NCBI RefSeq assembly: GCF_021502675.1
Contig: NZ_JAKFHA010000011.1
Coordinates: 179,189 to 240,918, forward strand
Direction of reading: 5' to 3'
DNA: 61,730 nucleotides
DNA from: Yinghuangia soli
GTDB lineage: Bacteria > Actinomycetota > Actinomycetes > Streptomycetales > Streptomycetaceae
The notes beneath the pieces are model-generated. The model searched no databases and was not told where the DNA came from. It saw only the letters and a program-made list of their open reading frames with translations. How positions within the stretch are numbered: position 1 is the stretch's first letter; each line of letters opens with the position of its first letter. Of the stretch, positions 11,908 through 17,001 are shown piece by piece. Made by a program: the position numbers and the translations under genes.

Positions 11908-11939
11908 CCTGTGCCCCCGGCCCGCGCCGGGGGCACAGG
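11908..11939 (+). terminator. strong terminator after mqnE
   Basis: A perfect 14-bp stem: CCTGTGCCCCCGGC (11908-11921) pairs with GCCGGGGGCACAGG (11926-11939) around the 4-nt loop CCGC. It is followed by a short T-containing stretch. Confidence 0.9.
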
Positions 11940-11942
11940 CGT

Positions 11943-12033
11943 TTCACGCTTGCGCTTCACGCTTGCGCTTCACGCTTGCGCTTCACGCTTGCGCTTCACT
12001 CCTGGGCTTCACTCCTGGGCTTCACCCCCGGGC
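11943..12033. repeat. 13-bp tandem repeat, seven copies plus degenerate tail
   Basis: Four identical units of TTCACGCTTGCGC (11943-11994), two of TTCACTCCTGGGC (11995-12020) and one of TTCACCCCCGGGC (12021-12033), all in register. Degenerate copies continue to about 12060. There are no spacers, so this is not a CRISPR array. It lies directly after the mqnE terminator in untranslated DNA. Confidence 0.9.
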
Positions 12034-12213
12034 TTTATTCCTCCGTGTCACTCCTGCGTGCGGAACCCTCCCGCCACCGCCGCCCGTTGTGGCCGCAGGG
12101 GACCCACCCCCTTTGCCTCCACCAGACCTCGCCTTCCACCGCCCGTTGCCCGTGCCCGAAGGCCCTCTCCCGCGGGACCTTTGCCGGATCCGGAGCGGCG
12201 TGTCCCCCGATAG

Positions 12214-12233
12214 CTTGTGAATGCATTCACAAG
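12214..12233. promoter_or_regulatory. perfect Rex-type operator (ROP)
   Basis: CTTGTGAATGCATTCACAAG is a perfect 20-bp palindrome containing TTGTGAA-N4-TTCACAA. That is the published consensus of the NADH/NAD+-sensing repressor Rex of Streptomyces. A -10-like GATAGC (12210-12214) abuts it, so bound Rex would block transcription of the DoxX-like gene starting at 12284. An ATG at 12221 lies inside the palindrome and is not a credible start. Confidence 0.75.
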
Positions 12234-12283
12234 ACCCGCTCCGGCCACCCGCCGGCGCGGCACCGGAAGGGGATTCCGCCGCC

Positions 12284-12880
12284 ATGGCCGCCACCGCCCA
12301 GCGAACCGAGGCAGTCGCCGACATCACGTGGGAGGCCGCCGGCGTCGCCCCGCGCAACGCCCCGACTGCCGCCCCCGATCCGTCCCACGCGACCACGCCG
12401 TTCGCCCGCCGCGCGCTCGCCGCGCTGCGGATCCTCCTCGGCTGGATGTTCCTGTGGCCGTTCCTCGACAAGCTGTTCGGCCTCGGCTTCAGCACCGAAT
12501 CGGCGAAGGCCGTGGTGAACGGCGGCTCGCCGACCGAGGGCTTCCTCAAGTTCGGTACGCAGGGCCCCTTTGCCCACATGTTCGACTCGGTGGCCGGCGC
12601 CTGGTGGCTCGACGCGGTCTTCATGCTCGGCCTGCTCGGCATCGGCGTCGCGCTGATCGCCGGCATCGGCCTCCGCATCGCGGCGGTCTCCTGCACGCTG
12701 ATGATGCTCTTCATGTACCTGGTCACCCTGCAGCCGGCCACCAACCCGATCGTGGACAGCCACTGGCTCATGGCGATCGCCGCGATCGTGGCGGCCGCCA
12801 CCTACGCCGGCAACACCTGGGGCCTGGGCCGCCGGTGGGGCTCGACCGCCCTGGTCCGCCGGTACGCCTGGCTCCGCTGA
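12284..12880 (+). CDS. DoxX-like membrane protein, probably redox regulated
   Basis: 198 residues. A 45-residue hydrophilic N-terminus is followed by four membrane helices (about 45-66, 110-130, 132-150, 160-178). The first helix leads into the DoxX/DoxD-like phrase GWMFLWPFLDKLFGLGF. Members of this family include the small subunit of archaeal thiosulfate:quinone oxidoreductase, but most have no assigned activity. The ATG at 12284 is chosen because AAGGGG lies about 11 nt upstream and because the earlier ATG at 12221 is inside the Rex-type palindrome. The operator suggests that it is expressed when NADH is high, for example during oxygen limitation, and so has a respiratory role. That role is inference. 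Confidence 0.8.
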   Translation: MAATAQRTEAVADITWEAAGVAPRNAPTAAPDPSHATTPFARRALAALRILLGWMFLWPFLDKLFGLGFSTESAKAVVNGGSPTEGFLKFGTQGPFAHMFDSVAGAWWLDAVFMLGLLGIGVALIAGIGLRIAAVSCTLMMLFMYLVTLQPATNPIVDSHWLMAIAAIVAAATYAGNTWGLGRRWGSTALVRRYAWLR

Positions 12881-13206
12881 CCCCGCACCGCCACCTCTGA
12901 GCAGTCGCCCCCCGGGCAGCCACCCTGCGGCAGCACCGCTTGGAGGTCACTCCCCTGGGGCGCTTGGGCAGCCATCCTCCGGCGGCACCAGCTGGCGCCA
13001 CCCCGCCGCGGCCCCCAGCTTGCGGCCCCACTGCGCCCCCGCGGCCCCGCCGCCCCTCGTCCCGGCCCGGCCGGACCCTCCGGCACGGCGGTCCCGCCGG
13101 GCCGCGGCATGAGCGCGCCCCGCCGAGTGCTCTACTGGATGCCGGGCAGTGCGGCCCGCCGCCGTGCCGCCGAGCAGTGTCCGCCGACCGGCCGAAGGAA
13201 CCGAAC
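12881..13206. other. 326-bp intergenic stretch with an imperfect direct repeat
   Basis: No gene is supported here. Two imperfect 24-bp copies of a GGGCAGCCAYCCT-containing unit (12914-12937 and 12966-12989, three differences) lie in C-rich DNA. I see no clear promoter. The last bases hold the AAGGAA ribosome site of the next gene. Confidence 0.6.
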
Positions 13207-13632
13207 GTGTCCACCACGAACTCCGCCCCCCAGTCCGAGTCCCCGTCCGAGTTCCCGTCCGCGTCCGCGCCCGACCGCCTCGGTCCCGCCGAGCCCGCGG
13301 CCGCCCCCGCCGGAGCCTCCACCGGTCACCCCGCGCTGCGCTACACCCTCCTGCGCTTCGGCCTGTTCGCCGTCGTCGGCGCGGTCGTATGGCTGGTCTT
13401 CGTGCTGCTCGACGTGGCCGGCAGCGGCGGCGCGTTCGTGGCCATCGCCGGCATCTCGCTCGCGATCTCCGGCCTGATCAGCTACTTCGCCCTGAACGGC
13501 CAGCGCGACGCGATGTCCGCCGCGCTCGTCGAGCGCGTCGAGCGCGCCAAGGCCCGCATCGACGAGGGCGCCGCCGCCGAGGACCGGGCCGTCGAACTGG
13601 GCAACTCGCCCCGCACCGCCGAGCCTTCCTGA
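13207..13632 (+). CDS. DUF4229 family small membrane protein
   Basis: 141 residues from a GTG at 13207 with AAGGAA just upstream. A Ser/Pro/Ala-rich N-terminus (1-42) precedes two membrane helices (about 49-70 and 77-97), and a charged helical tail follows (LVERVERAKARIDEGAAAED). The order LRFGLF, two helices, then SYFALNGQRDAMS matches the actinobacterial DUF4229 family. The function is unknown. It is transcribed alone; the following 200 bp lead into the leader-peptide promoter. Confidence 0.8.
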   Translation: MSTTNSAPQSESPSEFPSASAPDRLGPAEPAAAPAGASTGHPALRYTLLRFGLFAVVGAVVWLVFVLLDVAGSGGAFVAIAGISLAISGLISYFALNGQRDAMSAALVERVERAKARIDEGAAAEDRAVELGNSPRTAEPS

Positions 13633-13811: not shown

Positions 13812-13841
13812 TTGTCGTTTTACTGATGGACTGCTTACACT
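13812..13841 (+). promoter_or_regulatory. putative promoter of the leader peptide and symporter
   Basis: TTGTCG (13812-13817) and TACACT (13836-13841) are separated by 18 bp in an unusually AT-rich stretch. The -10 ends 7 nt before the ATG at 13849, so the transcript should begin at or next to that ATG and be leaderless. Confidence 0.6.
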
Positions 13842-13848
13842 CCACCTC

Positions 13849-13971
13849 ATGTTCGGCACAGGCGACACGTATGCGACGCGCACGGCGGTGGGTTTCCCGC
13901 TCGTGGCGCGTCTGCACGTCGACCTGGGCCGATGCGCCACCGCACTGTGTTGCGGCGCCGGCGTCAGCTGA
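13849..13971 (+). CDS. Cys-containing leader peptide upstream of a DAACS symporter
   Basis: 40 residues. The second half contains RLHVDLGRCATALCC, very like the short actinobacterial peptides annotated as putative leader peptide (an R-HVDL-R----A-C pattern) that precede sulfur and cysteine genes. The start appears leaderless, directly behind the promoter at 13812-13841. A 9-bp-stem hairpin starts two bases after the stop, and the symporter begins 230 nt later. In comparable systems ribosome stalling at Cys codons changes the mRNA structure downstream. Here three Cys codons (29, 34, 35) lie close to the end. The regulatory role is inferred. Confidence 0.65.
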   Translation: MFGTGDTYATRTAVGFPLVARLHVDLGRCATALCCGAGVS

Positions 13972-13972
13972 C

Positions 13973-14005
13973 CGGTACGCGAACCACGCACCACCGCGCG
14001 TACCG
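13973..14005 (+). promoter_or_regulatory. candidate attenuator hairpin after the leader peptide
   Basis: CGGTACGCG (13973-13981) pairs with CGCGTACCG (13997-14005) around a 15-nt loop, immediately after the leader-peptide stop codon. Further down, GAAGCGG (near 14131) can pair with CCGCTTC just before the symporter ribosome site AGGAG (near 14193), so a sequestering structure is possible. Confidence 0.5.
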
Positions 14006-14203
14006 CTTCGGCACGCCGCCTCCGACCGCTTCGCGGGCTTGCCGGACCACCGAGCACGACTCGGACTCCGGGCCCCGCACCTGACCGGTGGATGAGCGCA
14101 GTCCCGTTCCCCACATGCCACATCAGGCCTTGAAGCGGTCGCTTCCTCCGTCCCGCATGCCACGGTGCCCGGCACATCCGGCCGGCCGCTTCAGGAGCTC
14201 CCC

Positions 14204-15559
14204 TTGTCTGAAACCACTGCTGTGCGCAGGAAATCCCTGCCCAAGGTCCCCTTCTGGGCCCAGACCTTCATCGGCCTCGGCCTCGGTATCGTTCTCGGCT
14301 TCATCGCCAAGAACGGCAACGTCGAATGGCTCACGACGACGCTGACCGAGGTCGGCTCGATGTTCGTGCGCCTGCTCAAGCTCGCCGTCCCGCCGCTGGT
14401 CTTCACCGCCATCCTCGTCTCGGTGGCGAACCTGCGGAACGTCAACAACGCCGCCGGCCTCGCGCTCCGCACGCTCGGCTGGTTCCTGATCACCTCGCTG
14501 ATCGCGGTCGGCGTCGGCCTCACGCTGGGCCTGCTGACCGACCCGGGCCAGGGGGTCGACAAGGCCGACCTGCCCAAGCCGGAAAAGGGCACCACCAACG
14601 GCGACTGGCTCGACTTCCTCACCGGCATCGTGCCGACCAACATCGTGGACGCGTTCGCCAAGCCGAACGTCCTGCAGATCGTGTTCCTCGCGGTCGTCCT
14701 CGGTGCGGCCATCCTGTCGGTCGGCAAGAAGGCCGAACCGCTCATCAACGGCGCCGAGATCGTCCTCGAGGTCGTCCAGAAGGCGCTGTGGTGGGTCATC
14801 CGCCTCACCCCGATCGGCACCGCCGGCCTCATCGGCTCCAAGGTGGCGACCTACGGCTGGGACTCGCTCAAGCCGCTGAGCACGTTCGCCATCGACATCT
14901 ACGTCGGTTGCGCCATCATCCTGTTCGGCGTCTACCCGCTGCTGCTCGCCACGGTCGGCCGCGTCAACCCGGTGAAGTTCTTCCAGGGCGCCTGGCCCGC
15001 GATCCAGCTGGGCTTCGTGTCCCGCTCCTCGGTCGGCACCATGCCGGTCACGCAGCGCTCGGTCATCGGCCTGGGTGTCCCGAAGGACTACGCGTCGTTC
15101 GCGGTGCCGTTCGGCGCCACCACCAAGATGGACGGCTGCGCCGCGATCTACCCGTCGATCGCCGCGATCTTCGTCGCCCAGTACTACGGGATCGACCTGG
15201 GACCGAAGGAGTACTTCCTCATCGTCCTGGTCTCGGTCATCGGCTCCGCGGCCACCGCGGGTCTGACCGGCGCGATCGTGATGCTCACCCTCACCCTCGA
15301 CACCGTCAACCTCCCGCTGGCCGGCGTCGCCCTGCTCCTCGCCATCGACCCGATCCTCGACATGATCCGCACCGCGACCAACGTCGCCGGCCAGGCGGTC
15401 GTCCCGGTCCTGGTCTCGGCCCGCGAGAAGACGCTCGACCTGGAGAAGTACAACAACCCGAAGAGCATCGACGCCGCGGACGACGACGCGTCCGACGCCG
15501 ATGACACCACCAAGAACGTGCCTGCCCAGACCGACCGTCGGGAGCCGGTCAGCGTCTGA
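14204..15559 (+). CDS. DAACS-family dicarboxylate/amino acid:cation symporter
   Basis: 451 residues from a TTG at 14204 with AGGAG about 7 nt upstream. The Ser-rich hairpin SRSSVGTMPVTQRS, the TKMDGCAAIYPSIAAIFVAQ helix (the NMDGT-type cation/substrate site) and LAIDPILDMIRTATNVAGQAV are all present, so transport is likely to be active. Substrates of this family include glutamate, aspartate, C4-dicarboxylates and, for TcyP-type members, cystine. The Cys-containing leader peptide upstream favours cystine or another sulfur compound, but this is inference. The last 15 codons and the terminator are repeated 1.38 kb downstream. Confidence 0.88.
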   Translation: MSETTAVRRKSLPKVPFWAQTFIGLGLGIVLGFIAKNGNVEWLTTTLTEVGSMFVRLLKLAVPPLVFTAILVSVANLRNVNNAAGLALRTLGWFLITSLIAVGVGLTLGLLTDPGQGVDKADLPKPEKGTTNGDWLDFLTGIVPTNIVDAFAKPNVLQIVFLAVVLGAAILSVGKKAEPLINGAEIVLEVVQKALWWVIRLTPIGTAGLIGSKVATYGWDSLKPLSTFAIDIYVGCAIILFGVYPLLLATVGRVNPVKFFQGAWPAIQLGFVSRSSVGTMPVTQRSVIGLGVPKDYASFAVPFGATTKMDGCAAIYPSIAAIFVAQYYGIDLGPKEYFLIVLVSVIGSAATAGLTGAIVMLTLTLDTVNLPLAGVALLLAIDPILDMIRTATNVAGQAVVPVLVSAREKTLDLEKYNNPKSIDAADDDASDADDTTKNVPAQTDRREPVSV

Positions 15560-15619
15560 GCAAGCACACAGCAAGCGGCCCCGTTCCCCTCCGTGTCGTG
15601 GGGGACCGGGGCCGCTTCA
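15515..15619. repeat. 105-bp direct repeat, copy A (symporter 3' end plus terminator)
   Basis: It is identical to 16896-17001 except for one extra C and one C-to-G change in copy B. It covers the last 14 codons and stop of the symporter plus its terminator. The two copies are in the same orientation and bracket about 1.28 kb with two small membrane-protein genes. Confidence 0.95.
15573..15617 (+). terminator. terminator of the symporter gene (copy A)
   Basis: AAGCGGCCCCG (15573-15583) pairs with CGGGGCCGCTT (15607-15617). The inner TTCCCC/GGGGAC part has one mismatch that copy B lacks. Confidence 0.85.
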
Positions 15620-16895: not shown

Positions 16896-17001
16896 AACGT
16901 GCCTGCCCAGACCGACCGTCGGGAGCCGGTCAGCGTCTGAGCAAGCACACAGCAAGCGGCCCCGTTCCCCCTCCGTGTCGTGGGGGAGCGGGGCCGCTTC
17001 A
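16896..17001. repeat. 105-bp direct repeat, copy B
   Basis: It repeats 15515-15619 with one inserted C and one C-to-G change, and carries the symporter's last 14 codons and stop (NVPAQTDRREPVSV) with no gene in front of them. Identity ends abruptly on both sides. Confidence 0.95.
16954..16999 (+). terminator. terminator in repeat copy B
   Basis: A continuous 18-bp stem: AAGCGGCCCCGTTCCCCC pairs with GGGGGAGCGGGGCCGCTT with a single G-U pair. It is better paired than copy A, which suggests that copy B keeps the functional form. Confidence 0.8.

Follow-up and report, generated by a model that had tools for sequence, protein, structure and literature searches.

A conserved cysteine-codon leader frame ahead of a TcyP-like symporter in Streptomyces and its relatives, a candidate cysteine sensor with a fixed UGU codon

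The symporter gene at the centre of this analysis, found in Yinghuangia soli and assigned to a TcyP-like clade, is preceded by a short frame that probably works as a leaderless cysteine-sensing upstream open reading frame, on which ribosomes would stall when charged tRNA-Cys is short and thereby allow more symporter to be made. This reading, to which we give a probability of roughly 0.72, is built on the comparison of sequences. The observation beneath it is confirmed as real and above chance, as the frame, its Cys codons and its distance from the promoter are all conserved when set against paralogue and shuffle controls.

The leader was read directly on the forward strand of the window, that is, the whole stretch of 61,730 nucleotides that was analysed. 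It starts with an ATG at 13849, ends with the stop codon TGA at 13969-13971 and encodes the peptide MFGTGDTYATRTAVGFPLVARLHVDLGRCATALCCGAGVS. Three Cys codons are present, at 13933 (TGC), 13948 (TGT) and 13951 (TGC), the last two of which form an adjacent TGT TGC pair near the end of the leader (13948-13953). Direct reading bears out the claim of the sequence-only reading that a frame of 40 codons begins exactly 7 nt after the -10 box TACACT (13836-13841), and its estimate of about 230 nt ahead of the symporter TTG holds as well, with 232 nt separating the leader stop from the symporter start at 14204. The closeness to an actinobacterial leader-peptide pattern that had been proposed was recovered with the NCBIfam model NF042934 ('putative leader peptide'), which the leader matches with an E value of 6.9e-5 and 22.4 bits, below the curated cut-off of 27 bits. 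The alignment runs over profile positions 3-19 with the core RxHVDLxR....C; in the form R-x-[HA]-[VI]-D-[LF]-x-R with a Cys at +11, this core is present in the window peptide as RLHVDLGRCATALC. Because a generic sigma-70 promoter scan returned no site at the leader promoter, the hexamer TTGTCG can be read only tentatively as a -35-like element. A search of the window against Rfam at gathering thresholds returned 0 matches. The coordinates are collected in Table 1. Further upstream, DoxX-like and DUF4229 proteins are encoded between an MqnC-like gene and the leader (window 12221-13632), and a tandem array of about 7 copies of a 13-nt unit directly follows the MqnC-like gene (window 11939-12035).

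Table 1. Features of the leader and symporter region in window coordinates.
Feature	Position	Strand	Basis
Weak -35-like hexamer TTGTCG	13812..13817	+	18 nt before the -10 box; read from sequence
-10 box TACACT	13836..13841	+	Read from sequence; TANNNT 6 or 7 nt ahead of the leader start in 99/110 orthologue upstreams, window included
Cys-containing leader ORF (40 codons and the stop TGA), probably leaderless	13849..13971	+	NF042934-like core RLHVDLGRCATALCC; conservation
UGU (TGT) codon of the conserved Cys, +11 relative to the H of HVDL	13948..13950	+	TGT in 86/86 distinct leaders with a Cys there
Hairpin, 9-bp perfect stem, 15-nt loop	13973..14005	+	Read from sequence; kept in L123, 1/6 close relatives
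Symporter Shine-Dalgarno AGGAG	14193..14197	+	Read from sequence; CAGGAG in 7/7 aligned (window and six relatives)
SDF (DAACS) symporter, TcyP-like clade, TTG start	14204..15559	+	PF00375, E 1.2e-106; tree and signature

Conservation was followed in 110 orthologue upstreams, made up of the best 80 relatives from a scan of genome contigs and 30 loci from a family-wide draw. The latter covered 61 genomes and gave 34 high-identity orthologues (identity of at least 65%), 30 of which became the loci used. The set contains same-species doubles (e.g. L002/L123 and L065/L150; Lnnn are the locus labels of this analysis, with L121 being the window itself), and its genomes are not independent samples. 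Two derived sets, of 111 upstreams and of 81 leaders, each count the window twice (L121 and WINDOW). A motif-blind anchored scan (TANNNT, 6-8 nt, ATG or GTG, 18-80 codons, at least 2 Cys codons, within 520 nt) was positive in 99 of the 110 upstreams, window included, corresponding to 86 distinct peptides, as compared with 0/40 paralogous symporters and 25/1100 two-base-block shuffles. The gap from the -10 box to the leader start is 7 nt in 94 of these upstreams and 6 nt in five. The comparison among relatives that had been proposed from the sequence alone thus came out in favour of the leader, with frame, Cys codons and -10 spacing conserved in orthologues and no such leader at the 40 paralogues. 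These same counts lead us to reject the view of the leader as a frame that arose by chance before an ordinary C4-dicarboxylate symporter, an explanation that could appeal to the DctA models being the top NCBIfam matches of the symporter, far under their cut-off, and to the leader's own match to NF042934 being below threshold as well, and that we hold to be extremely improbable.

Other searches extend this picture. A strict motif search found the leader in 63 of the best 80 relatives, and a leader HMM built on those 63 loci adds L004, L023, L041 and L057. The HMM also matches 16/30 family-wide orthologues (15/29 without the window), some of whose species overlap the training set, and 0/40 paralogous symporters of the same draw on either strand. 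Four loci (L041, L042, L056 and L122) are outside the 99 positives of the anchored scan, yet a leader was found there by other searches. Among the 11 loci without an anchored-scan leader, L130 borders the end of its contig. L055, with a single HMM match at E 0.12, and L075 gave no leader, and none was seen by eye at the more distant orthologue L115. L062, L065, L142 and L150 (L065 and L150 with like readings) are without a leader; here a -10 box of the same type stands 7 nt ahead of the symporter start codon, and a similar promoter seems to drive the symporter directly, as a leaderless gene. The loss of the leader from these four loci means that expression of the symporter is possible in its absence. 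A natural experiment is offered by sister lineages that differ in having the leader and share the kind of promoter.

The most striking regularity concerns a single codon. Indeed, in all of the 86 distinct leaders counted, the codon for the Cys at +11, numbered from the H of HVDL, is TGT. They comprise 42 symporter leaders and 44 other leaders of the NF042934 type, the latter obtained from 46 loci in the window's own genome and in draws across the class and the phylum; in both groups, identical 36-nt stretches were counted once. At other leader positions the Cys codons are 39 TGT vs 111 TGC. When the symporter genes are read over their first 1.1 to 1.2 kb, TGT accounts for 2/76 Cys codons in 30 orthologues (L130 read off register) and for 6/77 in the 40 paralogues, giving 8/153 for both sets. 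Fisher's test of +11 against the other leader positions gives 5e-34, a figure that, because the leaders share ancestry, says just that chance is no explanation. The leaders were chosen on the protein level, and such a choice cannot favour one Cys codon over the other; the count requires the motif with a Cys at +11. Left out were, therefore, L092 (no Cys at +11) and L223 and L224 (no pattern match), along with L208, L215 and L221 (no clean frame) and L219, with TGT at +11 and missed by the stricter pattern. Three symporter loci are also outside the pattern, namely L023 and L041 (TGT at +11 by eye) and L057 (+11 Cys lost, by eye). The poly-Cys leader L193 has TGT at +11. When the distinct peptides of the anchored scan are considered, at least one TGT is present in 85/86, the exception being L057, whose frame has neither the +11 Cys nor any TGT.

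The meaning of the UGU codon is likely to be found in decoding: it is rare, is read by wobble, and would stand at the point at which the ribosome has to pause. Such wobble reading requires a tRNA with the anticodon GCA that serves UGU and UGC alike. Alternatively, the +11 UGU could belong to an RNA or DNA element, through pairing or as a protein site. In the alignment of Streptomyces leaders, a predicted leader hairpin joins the final U of UGU to the A of the Asp codon in 38/38 cases, as such an element would have it. This hairpin is not general, however, and leaders that do not have the partner bases (e.g. L083) keep UGU when inspected by eye, and we regard this alternative as rather doubtful. 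The decoding reading can be taken one step further, to a hidden rule of the whole leader class that we propose tentatively and at less than even odds: the last Cys of the motif would be a rare UGU, wobble-read at the end of an arrest-like nascent peptide, and it would be that codon that senses charged tRNA-Cys. If true, a silent change from UGU to UGC would weaken or remove the response throughout the cysteine regulon, and with it that of a TcyP-like branch for cystine uptake which the curated leader model misses. The codon-level rule concerns a widespread leader class and can be tested by one silent mutation.

The peptide itself is also under constraint. In motif-bearing leaders the residues around the motif are conserved and the synonymous codons vary, so that selection seems to act on both the peptide and the Cys codon. 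Such conservation, which would be unneeded for plain amino-acid attenuation, affects a stretch lying about 6-13 residues ahead of the Cys and is what one would expect if the leader were a nascent-peptide arrest sequence responding to the redox state or to another sulfur compound, with RxHVDLxR as the sensor and Cys as the trigger in place of charged tRNA-Cys. We consider this unlikely, as the silent preference for UGU at +11 points to decoding or RNA and not to the side chain alone, and a group of diverged frames argues in the same direction. Indeed, at 17 Kitasatospora-type loci (9 of the best-80 set, seven titled Kitasatospora and two Streptomyces, and 8 similar ones of the family-wide draw) the RLHVDL motif is gone, with most of the conserved stretch, but a frame at the same spacing holds 2 to 5 Cys codons, with TGT as the final one in 17/17 (example MTTADAARQDGTSTPLVSRCPRLPGAVDGPCRCRSGGCMRAARR). 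These frames are taken as diverged leaders, and the Cys codons thus appear to outlast the peptide motif.

The link of the leader to cysteine and sulfur is further illustrated by its counterparts elsewhere in the genome. A search of the window's own genome with NF042934 at E values up to 10 gave 19 matches, 13 of which look like leaders, that of the symporter included; the weakest of these are L092, without the +11 Cys, and L095 (E 0.75), and L094 and L096-L100 were judged by eye to be chance matches within genes. Downstream of the other twelve leaders are a rhodanese, ThiS, an NMT1-type binding protein, a nitrite/sulfite reductase (NIR_SIR), three luciferase-like monooxygenases, two glutathione-S-transferase-like proteins, an SBP_bac_5 protein, a winged-helix regulator and an AAA protein. 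The frame that follows ThiS reads as a cysteine synthase. Seven of the twelve belong, as we take it, to families with a part in sulfur or sulfonate assimilation; a thiol link is presumed for two, and for three no such connection is evident. All of these are broad families. Leaders of the NF042934 type were found in 33/40 genomes drawn across the class (E up to 0.001) and in 6/119 genomes across the phylum (E up to 1e-4), both draws including the window's own genome and all six of the latter belonging to the same class. In one place of that genome (G000, contig C20, 60775-61173; L091/L093), two divergent leaders stand about 290 nt apart, one facing a glutathione-S-transferase-like gene and the other a luciferase-like monooxygenase gene. 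Of the cysteine- or sulfur-dependent attenuation suggested by the sequence-only reading, the cysteine and sulfur side is well supported by these comparisons (Cys codons, spacing, 0/40 paralogues and 7/12 sulfur-type neighbours), and the part given to a hairpin as the attenuator did not stand.

The hairpin itself is present where it had been described. Its perfect stem CGGTACGCG/CGCGTACCG occupies 13973-13981 and 13997-14005 around the 15-nt loop, the first base being the second after the leader stop. A perfect stem of at least 9 bp arises in 9/300 shuffles of the whole 232-nt stretch and in 4/1000 shuffles of its first 60 nt. The hairpin was rejected as evidence, since among the six close relatives aligned L123 alone keeps it; the attenuator role is also disfavoured by the count of 0 terminator-like sites between 13600 and 14300, where no intrinsic terminator was found, and by the lack of covariation in the Streptomyces pairing. 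A helix seen by eye in the window that would block the Shine-Dalgarno sequence (GAAGCGGTC/GGCCGCTTC) was also discarded, as it is kept in L123 with nothing comparable, by eye, in the Embleya-like L124-L127. For the duplex between leader tail and spacer, 81 leaders compared with 100 shuffles each gave a mean z of 0.06, with 5/81 at or under 5 of 100 and thus no excess over the shuffles. Post-stop folding had a mean z of -0.51, with 13/81 below -2 and no general excess. In Streptomyces, a conserved block that follows the leader stop is complementary to the Cys-Arg-Cys codons, and pairing is frequent. Across 38 Streptomyces-type loci chosen from 63, 90.4% of cells are paired vs a shuffled mean of 91.4, with 0 double-change pairs; given the missing covariation and a value below the shuffled mean, this pairing is not claimed. 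Among the predicted pairs of the same 38 loci, 2/20 show a double change, both in a short post-stop helix. As regards a classical attenuator of the trp/his type, neither an intrinsic terminator with a U run nor mutually exclusive helices with covariation were found. Overall, the window scan and the comparative analysis of folding and pairing demonstrated no conserved terminator or Shine-Dalgarno-blocking structure before the symporter.

A further element may act on the promoter in many relatives. The palindrome CTTTG...CAAAG is present in 76/111 upstreams (window counted twice), in L005-L081 and others, and is absent from the window. In the cases read, it covers or adjoins the -35 region, some 23-39 nt ahead of the leader start. 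The exact palindrome occurs at one place each in two Kitasatospora-like genomes of the 6 searched, both times upstream of the symporter leader; as a possible regulon mark, it is absent from the other four, the window's genome among them. It may be an operator for a regulator.

The symporter protein is the sole SDF match in the 9.7-Mb genome. A tree was built from its clade, from actinobacterial relatives and from the E. coli proteins TcyP, GltP, DctA and SstT. In it, the window clade is united with TcyP and the TcyP-like L112 (local support 1.0) at a node that also holds one long-branch protein, L113. In particular, 11/11 members of the window clade compared read GATTKMDGCAAIYP, sharing with TcyP (YdjN) the GCA.YP signature that is one residue longer; the shorter form, mostly the DctA-type GYSFNLDG, is found in 40/40 paralogues, with GCA.YP in none. 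The motif [DE]P[IL][IL]DM.RT is likewise shared with TcyP, from which the window symporter differs in being about 31% identical to the E. coli protein, in having KMDG instead of GQNG and in an HP2 loop one residue shorter. The best NCBIfam models are those of DctA, at 210 vs 513 bits and hence far under the cut-offs, and with GATTKMDGCAAIYP in place of GYSFNLDG the protein does not come out as a DctA member. Pairwise BLAST gives E. coli GltP 172 bits, slightly above the 154 bits of TcyP; the closest proteins by sequence that have a solved structure transport aspartate, and the annotation of E. coli TcyP itself is that of a cystine/sulfocysteine symporter. These three points would fit a leader that responds to cysteine ahead of a symporter for something else, for instance aspartate/glutamate or a sulfonated amino acid (cysteate or sulfocysteine), an arrangement that we see as a genuine if less than probable possibility when set against the placement of the clade with TcyP in the tree and against the GCA.YP signature, common to TcyP proteins and found in 0/40 paralogues. 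As tree and signature are weighed against the GltP score and the aspartate-transporter structures, a cystine-like substrate is moderately favoured. The proposal of a cystine-type and not a C4-dicarboxylate transporter is sustained as far as the TcyP grouping, the GCA.YP signature and the missing DctA signature go, with the substrate supported indirectly. At the end of the gene, about 105 nt comprising the last symporter codons and a downstream hairpin (15515-15619) have a near-identical copy 1.38 kb on, at 16896-17001, with 75 nt at 100% identity, and C-terminal symporter fragments are also found in the relatives G060 and G095.

In the reading preferred here, that of a leaderless cysteine-sensing frame, the symporter mRNA would begin with the AUG of the leader, a start with which the gap of 7 or 6 nt in the 99 upstreams is compatible. 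A ribosome would start on the leader at once and run, towards the end of the frame, into at least two Cys codons, of which UGU is presumably the decisive one; it would slow down or stop there when charged tRNA-Cys is short. Stalling is probably helped by the conserved nascent R-x-H-V-D-L-x-R, which by then lies some 6 to 13 residues further along the exit tunnel, and would raise the expression of the symporter, which could then import cystine or a related sulfur amino acid. For the step downstream of stalling, both control of translation start and Rho-type termination remain. Should this scheme hold, a symporter family best-named as C4-dicarboxylate would move into the cysteine nutrition of Streptomyces-like bacteria, in which cystine uptake is expected to bear on precursors and redox balance.

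Related systems have been described over the years. Cys-rich leaders without terminators ahead of cys operons were noted in 2005 (PMC1262725), and Cys leader frames were proposed again as attenuators in 2015 (PMC4633059). In M. smegmatis, leaderless Cys frames are reported to act in a cysteine-responsive manner (Canestrari 2020, as cited in PMC9031893, PMC13236596 and PMC9094748), and such mycobacterial frames are described in PMC13236596 as translation attenuation. These polycysteine leaderless sORFs resemble the window leader in being short frames of the leaderless type, with Cys codons near the end and a sulfur setting; the window-type leader differs in that it precedes a symporter and occurs in Streptomyces and relatives as well as in the Streptosporangium-titled L054 and the Spongiactinospora-titled L056. 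The leader frames of S. lividans listed in Table 4 of PMC8079986 are likewise described as leaderless, and several have no clear Rho-independent terminator. The table assigns eight leaders to Leu, Trp, Ala, Ile, Met and Thr and calls none of them a Cys leader, and the text of that paper is without the word 'symporter', in which respects it differs from the present case. The likeness extends to metL, assigned to methionine in that table, which holds three Cys (RCMCRRMCAF); with these residues near its end and its position before metNIQ, it may be a further cysteine leader. As for codon choice, a cysS leader of Rhodobacterales uses mostly UGC, with UGU also present (PMC8632094), and it has been argued that attenuation varies in sensitivity with the synonymous codon that serves for regulation (PMC1183508). 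Among the literature matches listed (titles and abstract openings), no description of the symporter leader or of an actinobacterial UGU rule was found, and Canestrari 2020 may contain a UGU rule. A further counterpart is NF042934 (cis_reg_atten), whose core RxHVDLxR....C is shared by the symporter leader. The difference lies in the scores: 8/8 symporter leaders of relatives that were tested are under the cut-off or unmatched, one Kitasatospora leader being without a match, and the symporter-leader branch thus seems to escape the curated model. Cysteine leader frames are, in sum, already known; the comparison of sequences adds to them the branch ahead of the TcyP-like symporter, with the fixed UGU codon as a surprising general feature.
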